Assembly (NCBI GenBank): GCA_025357945.1
Contig: JANYLJ010000035.1
Span: 1-46,155 of the forward strand
Reading direction: 5' to 3'
DNA length: 46,155 nucleotides
DNA from: Gemmatimonadota bacterium
GTDB taxonomy: Bacteria; Gemmatimonadota; Gemmatimonadetes; Gemmatimonadales; GWC2-71-9
Below the pieces are notes generated by a model, which was given only the letters and a program-made list of their open reading frames with translations, ran no database searches and had not been told where the DNA came from. A program made the translations under genes and the position numbers. Within the stretch, counting starts at the first letter, position 1; each line of letters begins with the position of its first letter. Shown piece by piece: positions 20,123 to 33,226 of this stretch.

Positions 20123-22603
20123 TCAGGCCCCGGTCCCGGTCAACGCCCGGAACACGAGCTTGTCCTTGTCGGGGCCGACATCGACCTCGATTTCGTCGCC
20201 AGCGGTAAAGTCGCCGCTGAGGATTCGCTCACTGAGTGGGTCTTCGACGTAGCGCTGGATGGCCCGACGCAACGGGCGCGCACCATAGCTCTCGTCGAAG
20301 CCGTGTTCAACGAGGAAGTCGAGTGCCGCCTCGGTCAGCCTGACGTCATCGCCCACGCGCCGGGTGACGTCCTTGAGCAGGACGCGAACGATCTGCGCGA
20401 TGTGCGCCCGCGTGAGCGGGTGGAACACAATGACGTCGTCGAGGCGATTGAGGAACTCGGGGTTGAAGACCTTGGCGATTTCTTCCTTGACGGTTTCCGC
20501 CATCTTCTCGAACGTCTGCTTGGAATCCCCGCCGTGGAATCCGAGGGACTTCCCCTTCATGATGTCGCGGGCACCCACGTTGGAGGTCATGATGACGACC
20601 GTGTTCTTGAAGTCGATCACGCGGCCGTAGTTGTCGGTCAGGTGGCCTTCATCGAGCACCTGCAACAGGATGTTGAACACGTCGGGATGCGCCTTCTCGA
20701 TTTCGTCGAGCAGCACGACCGAATAGGGTTTCCGGCGCACCGCCTTGGTGAGCGTGCCGGAGTCCTCGTAGCCGACGTAACCCGGCGGCGCTCCGATCAG
20801 GCGCGACACCGAAAACTTTTCCATGTATTCCGACATGTCCACGCGAATCAGCGCGGCCGGGTCGTTGAAAAGGAACCGGGCCAGTGCCCGGGCCAGCTCG
20901 GTCTTGCCAACGCCAGTCGGTCCCGAGAAGATGAACGAACCGATCGGCCGGTTCGGGTCCTTGAGTCCGGCGCGCGAACGACGGATGGCGCGCGACACGG
21001 CATGGATCGCTTCGTCCTGCCCGATGACCGAGACGTGAATCTCGTCTTCCATCCGCAGCAGACGCGCCGCTTCCGCCTCCTGGATCCGGGTGACCGGAAT
21101 ACCGGTCCACCGACCAACGATGAAGGCTATCGCTTCCTCGTCAATGACGGGCCGCTTGGTCTGGCGCTCGGCCTCCCACTCGACCTGGACCTGGCGGATC
21201 TGTCCCTGCAGATCGCGTTCACGATCGCGTAACGCGGCGGCCTTCTCGAAGTTCTGGTCCCGCACCGCGTCTTCCTTCTCGGTGGTGACCACCTCGAGCT
21301 GCTTTTTCAGTTCACCGATCTCGGCCGGCGGATGCTGCGAGGCGAGGCGGGCGCGGGCGCCGGCTTCGTCGATCACGTCGATCGCCTTGTCCGGCAGGAA
21401 CCGATCGGTGATGTAGCGATCGGCGAGGTCGGCGGCCACTTGCAGCGTGGCGTCGGGAATGATCACGCGGTGGTGGTCCTCGTACTTCTTGCGCAATCCC
21501 TTGAGGATCTCGACGGTCTCGGCCACGCTCGGCGGCTCGACCACCACGGTCTGGAAGCGGCGCTCGAGGGCACCGTCCTTTTCGATGTACTTGCGGTACT
21601 CGTTCAGCGTCGAGGCACCGACACACCGCAACTCGCCGCGCGCGAGCGCCGGCTTGAGCATGTTCGAGGCGTCGATGGCGCCCTCGGCCGCACCGGCACC
21701 CACCAGCGTGTGCAATTCATCGATGAAGAGGATCACGTTCTTGCTCTGCGCGATCTCGTTCATCACCGCCTTGAGTCGTTCCTCGAACTGCCCGCGATAC
21801 TTGGTCCCGGCGATGACCGCGGCCATGTCGAGCGAGAGGACGCGGTGGTCGCGCAGGACGTCGGGGCAGGATCCGTTGGCAATCAGCAACGCGAGCCCCT
21901 CGACGATCGCCGTTTTGCCAACACCCGGTTCGCCGATCAACACCGGATTGTTCTTCTTGCGCCGCGCCAGGATTTCCATGACGCGCTCGATCTCCTTCGC
22001 CCGGCCGATCGTCGGATCGAGCGCGCCCTCGGCCGCAAGCACGGTGAGGTCCCGGCAGAAGTGGTCGAGCGCCGGCGTCTTCGATTTCTTCTCGGCCTTG
22101 GGCGGTACCGCCTGTGGGCCGGGTTGCACCGGAGCCCCGCTCTGCTGGCTCTGGGGCACGTCGCTGCCAAGCAGGCGGAGCGTTTCGGCGCGCGACTGCT
22201 CAAGCGTGACACCCGCGTCGGTGAGGACCTGCGCGGCAATCCCCTTTTCCTCACGAAGGAGGCCGAGCAGGAGGTGCTCGGTGCCGACGTAGGAATGGTT
22301 CAGCTCGCGGGCTTCCATCATCGCGAGCTCAAGCACCTTCTTGGCGCGCGAGGTGTACGGCAGCTCCGGTCCGGCCGCGGCTGCCGCCTTCCCCTTCTTG
22401 ACGGTTTCCTCGATCTTCTGCTGGATTTCCTCAAGTTCGACGCCGAGGTTGGTCAGCACCGCCGCCGCCACGCCTTCGCCTTCGCGGATCAGCCCGAGGA
22501 GAATGTGCTCCGTGCCGACGTACTCGTGGTGCAGGCGCGCGGCTTCCTCGCGCGCCATCTGCAGCACTTTGCGTACGCGGTCGGTAAAGTTGTATCCGTT
22601 CAT
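20123..22603 (-). CDS. clpC: ATP-dependent Clp protease ATPase subunit ClpC
   Basis: 826 aa AAA+ unfoldase. The double Clp_N domain keeps both glutamates of the GTEH motifs (E32 and E109); the equivalents in Bacillus ClpC bind phospho-arginine. D1 Walker A is GEPGVGKT (K230). A UVR-containing middle domain ([16 protein letters not shown]) is where McsA/MecA-type adaptors bind. D2 has [14 protein letters not shown] and the ClpP-docking loop SLGFHGGD. A strong GGAGGT precedes the ATG by 9 nt, and the ATG overlaps the mcsB stop (ATGA). Its partners McsA and McsB are immediately upstream; ctsR is absent from the cluster. Confidence 0.97.
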
Positions 22604-23676
22604 TGGTGACCTACCTCCTCGAACATCCGTCGCACGAATGCGGCACGGTGTTCTGGAATCGCGTCGGCATCGAGGCTCAGGCCAGCAGCCTCGGCGACGT
22701 GGGCCGTCTGTGCCAACACCAGCACCCGGTTCAGCGAATAAAGCGGAACGTCCGGCAGGATTCGCAATCCGACGCCGAGCCGTACGCCGCTCAAGAGATC
22801 CACAGTTTCCTCAAACGACAGCGTGCGGGCATGCTTCAGGACCGCCCATGCGCGCCATGCCTTGTCCTCGAGCGCGGCCGATGCGTCACGCCGGAGCGCC
22901 GTGCGCGCCCGCTCCTCGTATGCCATCACCTGGTGCACCATCCGGCCCAGGTGGTCGAGCAACTCGGCTTCCGACTTGCCCAGCGTCGTCTGGTTGGACA
23001 ACTGAAACAGGTTGCCGAGGGCCTCGCTGCCCTCGCCGAACAGGCCGCGATACGTCAGGCCGACCTGCGCCAAGCCCTGGAGGACCTTGGTGATTTCCTT
23101 GGTCAGGACCAGCGCCGGAAGGTGGATCAAAACCGATGCGCGAAGGCCGGTTCCGACATTCGTCGGACACGCCGTAAGATAGCCGAACTCGGGGTGGAAG
23201 GCGAAGGAAACCCGTGCCCCGAGCTCACGATCCGTGCGGTCTGTAACGCCATACGCCGACTCGAGCGCGAAGCCGGATCGCAGCCCCTGAAGGCGGACGT
23301 GATCCTCCTCGTTGATCATCGCGCTTGCGGAGCGTCCCAGGAGCAACACGGCGCCGCTGCGGACCCGCCCGGCGGCGTCCAGGCCGGCCAGTTCGCGAGA
23401 CACGAGCTGCCGCTCGTTGAGCCACCGGCGGGTGGCGATCGACACGGCGTCCAGCCGATACATCGTCGCGTCAGCCAGGGCGGGCATGTCTTGCGCTGCT
23501 GCCCCGATGGTGGTGACGATCGCTTCCCGGTCTTCGGGAGAGTTTCGGCCCCAGAACGGACGTCCTGCAAGGTTCCGCGCCAGCCTGATCCGTGTGGATA
23601 ACACGAGGTCGCTGTTCGGCCCGCTGGCATCGAGCCACGGCATCCCGCCATCGGGCACCAACGCCAAGTCCGTCAT
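22600..23676 (-). CDS. mcsB: Protein-arginine kinase McsB
   Basis: 358 aa ATP:guanido phosphotransferase that phosphorylates arginines in proteins and so marks them for ClpC-ClpP. Conserved elements are LSTRIRLARN, INEEDHVRLQ (E123), LTACPTNVGTGLRAS (C170), RGLFGEGSEALGN (E215) and QLSNQTTLGKSE. The phospho-arginine allosteric motif RDxxRA of Bacillus McsB aligns with I340-PEH-R344-A345, so its first Arg-Asp pair is missing. ATGA overlaps on both sides (mcsA and clpC) support one coupled unit. Confidence 0.95.
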   Translation of the reverse strand: MTDLALVPDGGMPWLDASGPNSDLVLSTRIRLARNLAGRPFWGRNSPEDREAIVTTIGAAAQDMPALADATMYRLDAVSIATRRWLNERQLVSRELAGLDAAGRVRSGAVLLLGRSASAMINEEDHVRLQGLRSGFALESAYGVTDRTDRELGARVSFAFHPEFGYLTACPTNVGTGLRASVLIHLPALVLTKEITKVLQGLAQVGLTYRGLFGEGSEALGNLFQLSNQTTLGKSEAELLDHLGRMVHQVMAYEERARTALRRDASAALEDKAWRAWAVLKHARTLSFEETVDLLSGVRLGVGLRILPDVPLYSLNRVLVLAQTAHVAEAAGLSLDADAIPEHRAAFVRRMFEEVGHQ

Positions 23677-24188
23677 TCTCCCTCTAATACGCGCAGCGCG
23701 TCGCGAAGTTCTGCCGCACGCTCGAATTGCTCGGCCGCAACGGCCAGCCGGAGTTGTTCCCCAAGCTCGGTGCGCGTGCGCTCACGGTATTCCGGGACCG
23801 TCAATTGTTCCGCGCCGGGCCGGGCGTAGCCGGTGCCGGTGTGCCGGGTTGCGCCGTGCAATCGGCGCAGCATGTCCCGCAGCGGCCGTTCGAAGGTGAT
23901 CCAGCAGCGAGCACATCCTAGACGGCCGGATGCCCGGAAGTCCTGCAGCGTCGCGCCGCACTCGGGGCACGCTTCGCCGACGGCAGCAGCGGCGGCCATC
24001 GGGGCACCGCCCTTGTCCATCGCGGCGAGAAATGCCCCGAGGGGCGTTTGCGCCACTTCGGTCGCGGTCTCGATGCCTCGTTCGGCGGCGCACTTGCTGC
24101 AGAGGTGGACGGTGGTGACGTCGTCGCCGACGATCTGGGTCAACCGCACCACCGCGTCGCGTTCGTGGCAGGACTGGCAGGGATTCAC
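23673..24188 (-). CDS. mcsA: McsA zinc-finger activator of McsB
   Basis: 171 aa. Four CxxC pairs (C4/C7, C30/C33, C74/C77, C92/C95) should bind two zinc ions, and the C-terminus is a UVR motif (LAVAAEQFERAAELRDALRVL), the standard McsA layout. In Firmicutes McsA activates McsB and links it to ClpC. The GTG start at 24188 overlaps the lolD stop (GTGA). An Ala-rich stretch around residues 56-71 is a likely linker. Confidence 0.93.
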   Translation of the reverse strand: MNPCQSCHERDAVVRLTQIVGDDVTTVHLCSKCAAERGIETATEVAQTPLGAFLAAMDKGGAPMAAAAAVGEACPECGATLQDFRASGRLGCARCWITFERPLRDMLRRLHGATRHTGTGYARPGAEQLTVPEYRERTRTELGEQLRLAVAAEQFERAAELRDALRVLEGE

Positions 24189-29453: not shown

Positions 29454-30443
29454 TCAGGTACTGCGGGCGTCGCGCCCGCCGGGACCGCTGCGAATTTCCA
29501 TGTCGCCCCGGCGACGGTCGACCACATAAACCGATCCGGGCAACGTCTTGGCATAGCTCTTCATCTCGGTCGCCAGTTCGCTCACTTGCGCCGGATGGGT
29601 GAAGCGGTGGTGCTGATTGGTGACCACGCCAATCGACAGCGTCATCAGCGGCACCCGGTGCAGCTGGCCGCGCCGGTCTTTCCCGAAAAAATAGCCTGCC
29701 TGGCGGTCCGGTTCGCTGTACTGCAGCGGGATCAGCTCATCGAACACGGCCAGGATCTCGGTGCACACGGGCGGGAAGTCTGCCAGTGATGTCACGAAGA
29801 TGAAGTCATCCCCGCCGATGTGCCCCACGAACCCATCGGATCCCAGCAGCCCTCGCACCACATCGTGCAGCACGCGCGAGAGGATGTAAATCACCCGGTC
29901 ACCGTCGTAATAACTATACCGGTCGTTGAACTCCTTGAAGTGGTCGAGGTCGGCGTAGCAGACTGCGAAGAGTGATCCCGCGTCCAGCCGCCGGCGAATC
30001 TCACGCTCGATCTCATTGGTCCCGGGCAGCCGGGTCGACGGGTGCACGGCGACGTCCCGTTCCGTCCTCACGATCAACGCATCCAGACGCGCCCGCTGCT
30101 CGGCCGGATCCACCAGCGGCGAAAGCACCTCATCCGCGCCCGCCTCGTACCACCCGACGATTGTGGCGACGTCGTGCCTGTCAGTGAGGATCGTCACCGG
30201 GACGATCGCCGTGGAGGGGTCCGCCTTGAGCCGCCCCACCAAGGCCACCCCGTCGCGATGCCGCGACGTCTCATCGACAAAGATCAGCGCGCCGCGACCG
30301 CGGAGGACCAGCGTGGCGACGTCCTCCGGGTCAGGATGCACCTCGATGCCGAGACTGCGGGCCGCCGCCCACCGGTGCACCAGCTCCGGGGGCGGTCGGT
30401 CAGCCGCGCCGCAATACAGGATCGTGCGACGCTGATGAGACAC
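29454..30443 (-). CDS. Receiver-like plus GGDEF-family protein with GGDDF site
   Basis: 329 aa. Residues 1-125 resemble a response-regulator fold (GALIFVDETSRH as a phosphosite-like strand, then AIVPVTILTD and EAGADEVLSPL). Residues ~135-312 are a GGDEF domain: YADLDHFKEFND is the metal and nucleotide region, but the signature is GGDDF (210-214) preceded by GHI. The inhibitory-site Arg of RxxD is replaced (LGSD). It may therefore bind GTP or c-di-GMP-like ligands without being a normal cyclase, although Asp could substitute for the Glu. GTG start with GGAG 7 nt upstream. No EAL or PilZ partner is in the window. Confidence 0.75.
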   Translation of the reverse strand: MSHQRRTILYCGAADRPPPELVHRWAAARSLGIEVHPDPEDVATLVLRGRGALIFVDETSRHRDGVALVGRLKADPSTAIVPVTILTDRHDVATIVGWYEAGADEVLSPLVDPAEQRARLDALIVRTERDVAVHPSTRLPGTNEIEREIRRRLDAGSLFAVCYADLDHFKEFNDRYSYYDGDRVIYILSRVLHDVVRGLLGSDGFVGHIGGDDFIFVTSLADFPPVCTEILAVFDELIPLQYSEPDRQAGYFFGKDRRGQLHRVPLMTLSIGVVTNQHHRFTHPAQVSELATEMKSYAKTLPGSVYVVDRRRGDMEIRSGPGGRDARST

Positions 30444-30500: not shown

Positions 30501-32171
30501 TCAAATGAACCACGCGGCCGCGGCAATCATGGCATACAACGCCAGCAGTTGCATCCCCTCGAACCAGTGGGACTCGCCATCCAGCGTCACGATCGCCGCG
30601 ACGATGGTGGCGACCGTCAGGGCGACGACCTGGAAGAGCGGAAAGACCAGGGTCACACCCTGTCCCATCAGCACGCCGGCGAGCACCAGCAGCGGTGCCA
30701 CCAGCAGAGCCACCTGGGTGCTCGATCCGACGGCGATCTGGACCGCGAGCTCCGTCCTGCCCTTGCGCGCCGCCACGATCGCGCTGGCGTGTTCCGCGGC
30801 GTTTCCCACAATCGGGATCACGATCAGGCCGAGAAACACTTGCGACAGGTGCAGCGACTGCGTCACCGACCCAATAGTGTCGACGAGATACTCGGATTCG
30901 ACAGCGACGATGACGGTCGCCAGGCCCAAGGCGCCGAGCGCCGCCGCCAGTGGCCACTGCGTGCCACCCAGCGTGGCATGGTCGCCACCCGCGAAGAGGC
31001 GTTTGTGGGTGTGCATCGTGAACAGCAGCGAGCCGACGTAGGTGACCGCCAGGATCCCGGCGACGATCTGCGAGAGCTGGGTAACGTTGTGCTCGCCCGG
31101 TCCGCCGCCGACGACCGACGGGAGGATCAGTCCGGCGACCGCGAGCGCCAGCATCGCCGCGCTCATCCCTGCCGCCGTCCTGCTGAACTTGAGCGTCGGC
31201 TGGCGCAACCCACCGGTAAAGAGTGCCAAGCCGAGGATCAACAGCAGGTTACTGAGAATCGAGCCGGTAAGCGACGCCTTGACGAGCTCGACGTACCCGG
31301 CCTGGAGTGCGGCGATAGCGACGATCACCTCGGTCGCGTTGCCGAATGTGGCGTTGAGCAGCCCGCCGATCATCGGGCCGGTGCGAGCCGCGACCTGTTC
31401 GGTGGCGTACGCGATCATGGCGGCGAGCGGGACGATGGCCAGGCAGGCGGCGGCGAACAGTGCCGTCATGTTGCCGCCAGTAAAGTGCAACCAGACCGAG
31501 ATCGGCACGGCGAGATAGAAGACCCAGAGCCACGACCAGCGCCGTGGCGCACGCGGCGGCGGGGCGGGCTTTGGCGGTAGTGTCAGCCGCGGGCGTTCGG
31601 GCGGGCGCGGCTCGGGGATGTCGTCGATTTCGGGGTCGCGTGTTGGGCGGGCCGGCGTGTCGCGTTCTCGCGGTGGCGGCTCCTTGCGCTCACGCGGTTC
31701 ACGGGGCGGCGGTGTCTTCGCCGCTCCCTCCCGTCGAGCTGCCGGACTCTGTTTTGTGGCGTGCGGTCGGGTCAGTGCCTTGAGTTGACTCGGCTTGACC
31801 TTCGCTTCCGAAAGTCCACGTGCCACGGCACCGCGGGGCTCGCGGATGAGTGCGAGGAGGACGTCATCGGCGTTGGCGGTGTCGCGACCATCAGCTGTTG
31901 CCATCACTCCGGCCGTGTCGATCACGCGTAGTGCGTGCGAGGAGAGCCCCCCCTCCTCGGCCGCGGCGCCAGCTCGTGGCGGACCACTGCGGGTGCCGAG
32001 CAGGGCGCGAAACGCGTCCGGGGTCAATCCCGCTGTCGCAGCGGCCTCGTGGGCCGGGCCGGTGCCGACAAGGAGCCAGGCGAGAAAGAGGTGCTCCGAG
32101 CCCACAAAGGTCGACCCAAGCGCCCCGGCCTGCTCGGCTGCGGTAGCGCGAAGACTATCGAGAGTGGTCAT
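30501..32171 (-). CDS. Clp_N domain fused to Ca2+/H+ antiporter (CAX type)
   Basis: 556 aa with an unusual architecture. Residues 1-133 resemble the double Clp N-terminal domain: VGSEHLFLAWLL matches the [11 protein letters not shown] repeat of ClpC (E26 kept), and a second repeat (SHALRVIDTAGVMATADGRDTANADDVLLALI) lacks the glutamate. Residues ~135-212 are a charged Pro-rich linker. Residues 213-556 are a full CaCA/CAX exchanger with about 10-11 helices and the two alpha repeats GNATEVIVAI (E281) and GNAAEHASAI (E460). It should exchange Ca2+ for protons at the inner membrane with the Clp_N domain probably cytosolic. The frame is continuous, so this is a true fusion. It follows the Trm112-like gene by 9 nt. 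Confidence 0.88.
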   Translation of the reverse strand: MTTLDSLRATAAEQAGALGSTFVGSEHLFLAWLLVGTGPAHEAAATAGLTPDAFRALLGTRSGPPRAGAAAEEGGLSSHALRVIDTAGVMATADGRDTANADDVLLALIREPRGAVARGLSEAKVKPSQLKALTRPHATKQSPAARREGAAKTPPPREPRERKEPPPRERDTPARPTRDPEIDDIPEPRPPERPRLTLPPKPAPPPRAPRRWSWLWVFYLAVPISVWLHFTGGNMTALFAAACLAIVPLAAMIAYATEQVAARTGPMIGGLLNATFGNATEVIVAIAALQAGYVELVKASLTGSILSNLLLILGLALFTGGLRQPTLKFSRTAAGMSAAMLALAVAGLILPSVVGGGPGEHNVTQLSQIVAGILAVTYVGSLLFTMHTHKRLFAGGDHATLGGTQWPLAAALGALGLATVIVAVESEYLVDTIGSVTQSLHLSQVFLGLIVIPIVGNAAEHASAIVAARKGRTELAVQIAVGSSTQVALLVAPLLVLAGVLMGQGVTLVFPLFQVVALTVATIVAAIVTLDGESHWFEGMQLLALYAMIAAAAWFI

Positions 32172-32180
32172 CGGGAATCA

Positions 32181-32354
32181 TCAGTCGAGCGGCTTGGCTT
32201 CGTCGATGAGCATGATCGGAATGTCATCTTCCACCAGGTACACGAGCCGGCAGGCGTGGCAGACCAGGGATTCGTCGGGCGCGGTGCGATATTCGAGGTC
32301 GCCCTTGCACTTGGGGCAGACCAGGATTTCGAGCAGTTGCGGTAGGACCGGCAT
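32181..32354 (-). CDS. Trm112-like small zinc-ribbon protein
   Basis: 57 aa. [20 protein letters not shown] and a second pair (C32-x2-C35, [19 protein letters not shown]) give one zinc site (C13, C16, C32, C35). This matches the Trm112/UPF0434 (YcaR) family, small proteins that in eukaryotes and archaea activate methyltransferases; the bacterial role is unclear. Its ATG overlaps the era stop (TGATG). Confidence 0.85.
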
Positions 32355-33226
32355 CAGTTCGCCTCCTCTGGGGTCGGCGGAAACCCGAAGCGCGCGAGTG
32401 CAGCCGCACTCCGTCGCCAGCGCGGCAGCACCTTGACCCACGTTTCCAGGTAGACCGGCTCACCCAACAATGCCTCGAGCCGAGCGCGGGCGTGACTGCC
32501 GATGCGGCGCAGTGTCGCACCACCGTGGCCGATGACGATTCCCTTCTGCGACTCGCGTTCCACGTACAGCGTGGCTCGAATGTATACCGGCTTCCGTTCC
32601 TCGCGGTACTCATCCACCTCGGCCGTGAAGGCGTAGGGCACTTCGTCCTCAAGGGCGTCGAAGGCCGCTTCGCGGAGGTATTCGGTGACGAAGAACTTCA
32701 TCGGCTGCGTCGCGAGGTCGTCGGCGGGAAACTGGAACTCACCCGGGCGCAGCTTGGCGCGAAGTTGCGCGACCAGATAGTCGATCGACCGCTGGCTGCT
32801 GACTGACGTCACCAGTGCCGTTGCTTTGAGTTCCTCGCGGCGGGCGGCGGTGACCATGTCACCCTTGGTGTACACGGTGATCAATTCGGCCTTGAACGGT
32901 GGTGCCTCGGGAACGAGTTCAGCGAATACCGGGGCCGGCGCTTCGGGTGCGGGGTGCAGGAAAAGGACGATATCCGCCGTCCGCAGCCCATCGAGCGCGA
33001 GGTGGAGCATGCTTTTCTGGAGCAAGTAGGCCGGCTCGAGGAGGCCGGGGAGATCGACGAAGACGATCTGGGAGTCGTCGTCGCTGAGAATGCCGCTGAC
33101 GGGAAGCCGGGTGGCCTGCGCCTTGGGGCTTACCAAGGAGAGGTGGGTGCCGAGGATGGCGTTGAGGAGTGAGGACTTGCCGGCATTCGGCCGGCCGGCG
33201 AGGGCGATACGGCCGAAGCGAGGCAT
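32354..33226 (-). CDS. era: GTPase Era
   Basis: 290 aa, normal for Era, which binds the 16S rRNA 3' end during small-subunit maturation. G1 is GRPNAGKSS (11-19), switch region SPKAQATR, G3 is DLPG (usually DTPG), and G4 is TKGD (120-123, usually NKxD). A C-terminal KH domain is clear ([23 protein letters not shown]). The G3 and G4 substitutions may alter nucleotide handling. ATG 33226; the open frame upstream has no Era character. A 138 bp gap from hemG suggests a separate promoter, but I see no convincing -35/-10 pair. Confidence 0.9.

Follow-up and report, generated by a model that had tools for sequence, protein, structure and literature searches.

A Ca2+/H+ Exchanger Gene Joined to a ClpC-Type N-Terminal Domain in One Family of Gemmatimonadota

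The Fusion Gene and Its Locus

The window, i.e., the whole stretch of 46,155 nucleotides that was analyzed, contains a gene in which a Clp_N domain precedes a Ca2+/H+ exchanger of the CAX type (Table 1). As the sequence-only reading of this DNA had claimed, the gene is one continuous frame, with an ATG start and no internal stop. In a Pfam scan of the whole 556-residue protein, Clp_N (PF02861) was matched in two stretches with an E-value of 2.7e-10 and a score of 40.7 bits, above the curated cut-off of 20.7 bits, and Na_Ca_ex was matched in two stretches with an E-value of 5.2e-38. The Clp_N profile, run on residues 1–140 alone, again gave two stretches and passed the cut-off (E = 6.3e-12). 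No AAA family was found in the Pfam scan of the fusion protein, which is therefore not classed as a ClpC/Hsp100 AAA+ ATPase.

Table 1. Positions of the fusion gene, its domains, selected residues and neighboring genes in the window.
Feature	Position	Strand	Basis
clpC, mcsB, mcsA genes	20123..24188	(-)	Pfam
GGDEF-domain protein	29454..30443	(-)	PF00990 E=3e-10; starts 57 nt after fusion gene
Clp_N-CAX fusion gene, 556 aa	30501..32171	(-)	ORF; Pfam Clp_N and Na_Ca_ex; fusion conserved (no fewer than 21 genomes)
CAX exchanger domain, 11 predicted TM segments, N-terminus inside (predicted)	30504..31535	(-)	TIGR00378; PDB matches; charge distribution
Glu460 = YfkE E255 equivalent, then His461 (YfkE H256)	30792..30794	(-)	GNAAEH motif at 456; aligned to YfkE
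Glu281 = YfkE E72 equivalent	31329..31331	(-)	GNATE motif at 277; aligned to YfkE
Pro/Arg-rich linker, residues 137–212, predicted disordered	31536..31763	(-)	Composition; low pLDDT
Clp_N repeat 2, residues 76–136	31764..31946	(-)	Second Pfam stretch; alone sub-threshold, 18.5 bits (own-genome search)
Asp102 = ClpC E106 equivalent (pArg1 site)	31866..31868	(-)	Alignment
Ser77 = ClpC T81 equivalent (pArg2 side, by pseudo-symmetry)	31941..31943	(-)	Ser/Thr in 19/20 fusions
Clp_N repeat 1, residues 11–58, Gly-x-Glu-His motif	31998..32141	(-)	PF02861 30 bits, passes alone (own-genome search)
Glu26 = ClpC E32 equivalent (pArg2 site)	32094..32096	(-)	Invariant, 20/20 fusion N-domains
Trm112-like gene	32181..32372	(-)	PF03966 E=6e-11; ends 9 nt ahead of fusion gene; conserved neighbor

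The gene order at the locus is Era-Trm112-CAX-GGDEF-MJ0042-PrfB-LysS-LolC-LolD-McsA-McsB-ClpC-BamA. This order is constant in the loci checked and runs on to mcsAB-clpC wherever the contig is long enough. McsA, McsB and ClpC are encoded on the same strand, 6–12 kb from the fusion gene, as had been read from the DNA. Their proximity had been noted beside the inferred link of the exchanger to the Clp system or to phospho-arginine (pArg). The same order, however, is present beside unfused exchangers in two genomes (G024 and G013, for which the sequence examined stops within mcsB). The neighborhood adds little for this reason and was set aside as evidence for a Clp link. In G024, Trm112 is separated from the unfused CAX by two ORFs that contain no Clp_N (L122:15483-17322). 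The GGDEF protein carries GGDDF as its motif, and its N-terminus weakly resembles a receiver domain; its gene directly follows CAX whether or not the exchanger is fused.

Fold of the N-Terminal Domain and State of the Exchanger

An AlphaFold2 model of residues 1–143 (pLDDT 87.4, pTM 0.84) consists of eight helices, four per repeat: residues 4–17, 25–35, 39–46 and 51–59 in repeat 1, and residues 78–93, 101–110, 114–122 and 127–134 in repeat 2. Together with the two Pfam stretches, these helices bear out the two Clp_N-like repeats recognized earlier. With VIA-align, the model was superimposed on the N-terminal domain (NTD) of Bacillus subtilis ClpC (PDB 2y1q) with a Z value of 16.4 and an rmsd of 3.1 over 131 residues, and on the pArg-bound ClpC NTD (PDB 5hbn) with a Z value of 15.2; the best alignments with solved ClpC NTDs gave Z values of 15–16 over 126–139 residues. 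The sequence profile ranked B. subtilis ClpC (E = 8.8e-25) ahead of ClpA (3e-9) and ClpB (5e-8) among solved relatives. From the model and the profile, the domain can be confidently predicted to have the two-repeat, all-helical NTD fold, of the ClpC type and not the ClpA/B type. The fusion protein combines, on a single polypeptide, a ClpC-type NTD and a CAX exchanger that is apparently intact.

The fusion protein shares with the ClpC NTD the fold, the two repeats and the first Gly-x-Glu-His motif. However, no ATPase follows the domain, the second Glu is Asp, Arg83 is replaced by His, and the chain starts at the equivalent of T7. Since residue 1 of the fusion protein aligns with ClpC residue 7, the short stretch ahead of the first ClpC helix is absent.

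The sequence-only reading had also described a complete CAX exchanger with GNATE and GNAAE α repeats. The exchanger part scored 321 bits against the NCBIfam cax equivalog TIGR00378 (cut-off 211), both motifs are present, and PDB searches matched it to VCX1 (PDB 4k1c, E = 1.9e-66) and YfkE (PDB 4kjr, E = 2.9e-64). According to the YfkE alignment and the motifs, Asn278, Glu281, Asn308, Asn457, Glu460, His461 and Gln486 are kept; in the same order, they correspond to N69, E72, N99, N252, E255, H256 and Q281 of YfkE, which are ion-site residues, with E72 being essential (PMC10227063). The fusion protein shares with the exchangers YfkE of B. subtilis and VCX1 of yeast the whole transport domain, including both α repeats and the essential Glu that each repeat carries (Glu281 and Glu460). 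The exchanger is apparently intact, and Ca2+/H+ exchange is predicted for it. Hydropathy analysis gave 11 transmembrane (TM) segments, and positive charge lies on those loops that an internal N-terminus would place inside the cell. Because of this distribution, the Clp_N domain is most likely cytosolic; the cytosolic placement given earlier is therefore probably correct, as judged from predicted topology and charge.

The linker between the two parts, previously put at about 80 Pro-rich residues, comprises about 76 residues, including 23 Pro and 15 Arg, and its length is variable among the fusions. A full-length AlphaFold2 model based on an alignment of 6 sequences was poor (pLDDT 53.6, and below 50 over residues 138–213) and was dropped as a guide to domain contacts.

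YfkE has no residues before its first TM segment (PMC9310016), whereas the fusion protein has about 212, including a folded domain. Plant CAX1 likewise has an extension before TM1, and in tomato and Arabidopsis CAX all residues before TM1 are inhibitory (PMC9310016). The N-domain, which is also placed before TM1, could therefore be a plain autoinhibitory extension that sterically blocks the exchanger without any Clp ligand. The plant region is short (tomato truncations of 39 and 66 residues) and has no Clp_N domain. Against plain autoinhibition, a plug would not need as much as a folded ClpC-type domain whose motif surface is preserved, and a long flexible linker would make steric plugging less direct. 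We regard plain autoinhibition as rather unlikely.

Distribution, Origin and Selection of the Fusion

In a search of related genomes with translation of the loci, fusions of Clp_N to CAX were found in 11 genera of one Gemmatimonadota family, in no fewer than 21 genomes, so that the architecture is recurrent in one bacterial family. This count includes G005, whose contig starts inside the Clp_N domain, and G002, in which a frame break splits the gene. The frame change in G002 lies between the linker and CAX on a low-coverage contig (C374) and is probably a sequencing error. Both Pfam families were matched in all ten fusions scanned (10/10), and the named records with the fusion are all metagenome-assembled genomes (MAGs) of Gemmatimonadetes. 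Among 41 genomes sampled across the class, the Clp_N part of the query was not reached by any match from outside the family. A contig scan with a single protein as the query gave no match; with an N-domain profile, fusions occurred in Gemmatimonadota records only, among the matches listed. The profile scan relied on a single peptide pattern in which the Glu-His motif is contained, and it under-samples degenerate forms; because the motif is part of the pattern, the scan is no gauge of Glu-His conservation in other phyla.

In a tree of CAX sequences, the genes of the clade form one branch of 28, of which 22 were counted as fused (including G018, which shows the linker only), four are unfused and two are cut by contig ends. 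The fusion state requires three changes on this tree and would be explained most simply by one gain and two losses. In a tree of Clp_N domains, the fusions and the Gemmatimonadota ClpC NTDs fall on one side of a branch with a support of 79/84. This result is suggestive, not decisive, of the lineage's own ClpC NTDs being the nearest kin of the fusions. Capture of Clp_N from the neighboring clpC gene would fit and may have been the step involved.

The N-domain is under purifying selection, with dN/dS values of 0.08–0.29 in six pairs, as are repeat 2 taken separately (0.06–0.24) and the exchanger (0.05–0.18). The fusion gene is no assembly accident; it is genuine and of long standing, and selection acts on it. 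The domain might still be a passive or decaying passenger without present function: the motif of repeat 2 is gone in several lineages, and the N-domain appears dispensable, because two lineages seem to have lost Clp_N yet keep the exchanger. However, purifying selection that extends to repeat 2 and the presence of the domain in 11 genera argue against a passenger, which we consider very improbable.

Candidate Pockets and the Role of the N-Terminal Domain

In ClpC, E32 belongs to the pArg2 site, and E106 and T7 belong to the pArg1 site, which is the more relevant one for ClpC activation by pArg (PMC12583610, EMBO J 2025). T81 probably belongs to the pArg2 side as well, as the pseudo-symmetry of the repeats suggests. 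In the fusions, the first glutamate is kept, as had been stated: Glu26 is Glu in 20/20 fusions and ranks second in conservation among 154 columns, and position 77, Ser or Thr in all but one of 20, ranks 14th. The position of ClpC R83 is occupied by His79. For the second glutamate, previously reported as lost, the picture is not so simple: the E106 position is Asp102 here and Asp in 8/8 aligned sequences of the genus, but among the 12 fusions of other genera seven retain Glu. G071 and G068 represent lineages in which both glutamates are kept. The T7 position falls on Met1, so that Met1 and Asp102 stand where the pArg1 site has T7 and E106. As judged by alignment, a pArg2-type side is apparently kept and a pArg1-type side is degenerate in this genus.

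One explanation of this pattern is a pArg receptor, in which the pArg2-type pocket would bind McsB-phosphorylated proteins and so couple protein damage to Ca2+/H+ exchange. Glu26 and Ser/Thr77 are among the most conserved columns, and the genome encodes both an McsB that has the NEEDH motif and a ClpC whose NTD keeps both Gly-Thr-Glu-His motifs. The last two features are the reason why pArg signaling may exist in this organism; the NCBIfam models of McsB and McsA were matched below their cut-offs. McsB was also found in 25 of the 26 near-complete genomes searched, but with and without the fusion alike, and its co-occurrence was set aside as uninformative. The four fused genomes without an McsB match are G018, G023 and G071 (66–79% complete) and G005 (93% complete), where the fusion contig ends at LolD, so the absence of McsB from G005 stays unproven.

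Against a receptor of this kind, the site that matters more for ClpC activation is the degenerate one (PMC12583610), and Arg83 is exchanged for His. Moreover, Escherichia coli ClpA (the sequence compared is identical to that of the PDB entry) has the same first Glu and Thr but no second Glu. McsB is not known from E. coli, and the retained Glu is for this reason not diagnostic of pArg binding. Since Glu26-His27 is common to Clp_N domains generally, its conservation may be structural. Hence, of the earlier proposal of pArg sensing, the kept Glu26 and Ser77 stand on the pArg2 side, whereas the degenerate pArg1 side, His79 and the unspecific pattern count against it; the proposal is possible but weak. 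A pArg receptor is doubtful, and pArg is unlikely to be the ligand of the N-domain.

Docking to the Clp machinery is somewhat less doubtful, although still tentative. The N-domain would contact the ClpC M-domain or McsAB, and the exchanger would recruit the protease to the membrane or be a regulated substrate. The NTD is of the ClpC type, sites on the ClpC NTD contact the M-domain and adaptors (PMC12583610), and the probable kinship with the lineage's own ClpC NTDs points the same way. ClpS was rejected as a ligand of the N-domain, none having been found in the own-genome search, and this also favors docking. Two ClpC contact residues are nevertheless changed (R9 to Thr3 and K85 to Leu81), and the shared neighborhood of fused and unfused genes speaks against docking.

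The reading we prefer, with a probability of about 0.55, is broader: a Clp-type domain for protein binding has been added on the cytosolic side and either regulates the exchanger or brings partners to it. Regulation or docking is its most likely role. A Ca2+/H+ exchanger of the cell membrane would carry a ClpC-type NTD, which a flexible linker would hold inside the cell and which may derive from the ClpC of the same lineage. The ligand of the domain would be a protein belonging to the Clp system, be it a substrate, an adaptor, McsAB or ClpC; candidates also include pArg proteins and unfolded chains. Binding would alter exchange activity, in the manner of the plant CAX region before TM1, or else affect where the exchanger is located or how fast it is turned over. 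In a stronger form, which we think unlikely, the exchanger would be gated or recruited through its ClpC-type domain, and McsB-marked damage or the Clp machine would thereby have direct control of bacterial cytosolic Ca2+ or pH.

So far, Clp_N domains have been known chiefly as receptor modules of machines that unfold proteins. The long retention of such a domain by an ion exchanger suggests that protein quality control and Ca2+/proton balance are physically and directly connected; the small, soluble N-domain offers a handle for testing this connection. In the open-licence PubMed Central literature searched, no architecture of Clp_N with a transporter or exchanger is described, in line with the earlier remark that its function is not described; each of the two domains is known already, and it is their joining that this literature does not describe. 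A precedent for Clp_N acting without an ATPase is mycobacterial ClpC2, a partial ClpC1 homologue with ligand-binding Clp_N domains that bind cyclomarin A. It differs in being no transporter, in repressing its own transcription and in serving as a cyclomarin A sponge (PMC10030653).

Clp_N domains were also encountered in other settings. A cyanobacterial MAG encodes a 1174-residue protein with ten Clp_N stretches and no further Pfam family (L054:1299-4820), and an Acidimicrobiales MAG encodes two Clp_N stretches with a ClpX-type C4 zinc finger after them and no ATPase (L088:5391-6131). A Clp_N match on G000:C48 (18.4 bits, below the cut-off) was taken as chance, there being no Clp-like ORF. A 1738-residue protein of a Planctomycetia MAG combines four Clp_N stretches with a C-terminal AAA domain (L084:4132-9345). 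The genome under study itself has, on contig C38 (L127), a ClpV-like Clp_N-AAA gene (950 aa) that seems to belong to a type VI secretion locus, as judged from its neighbors by eye only.
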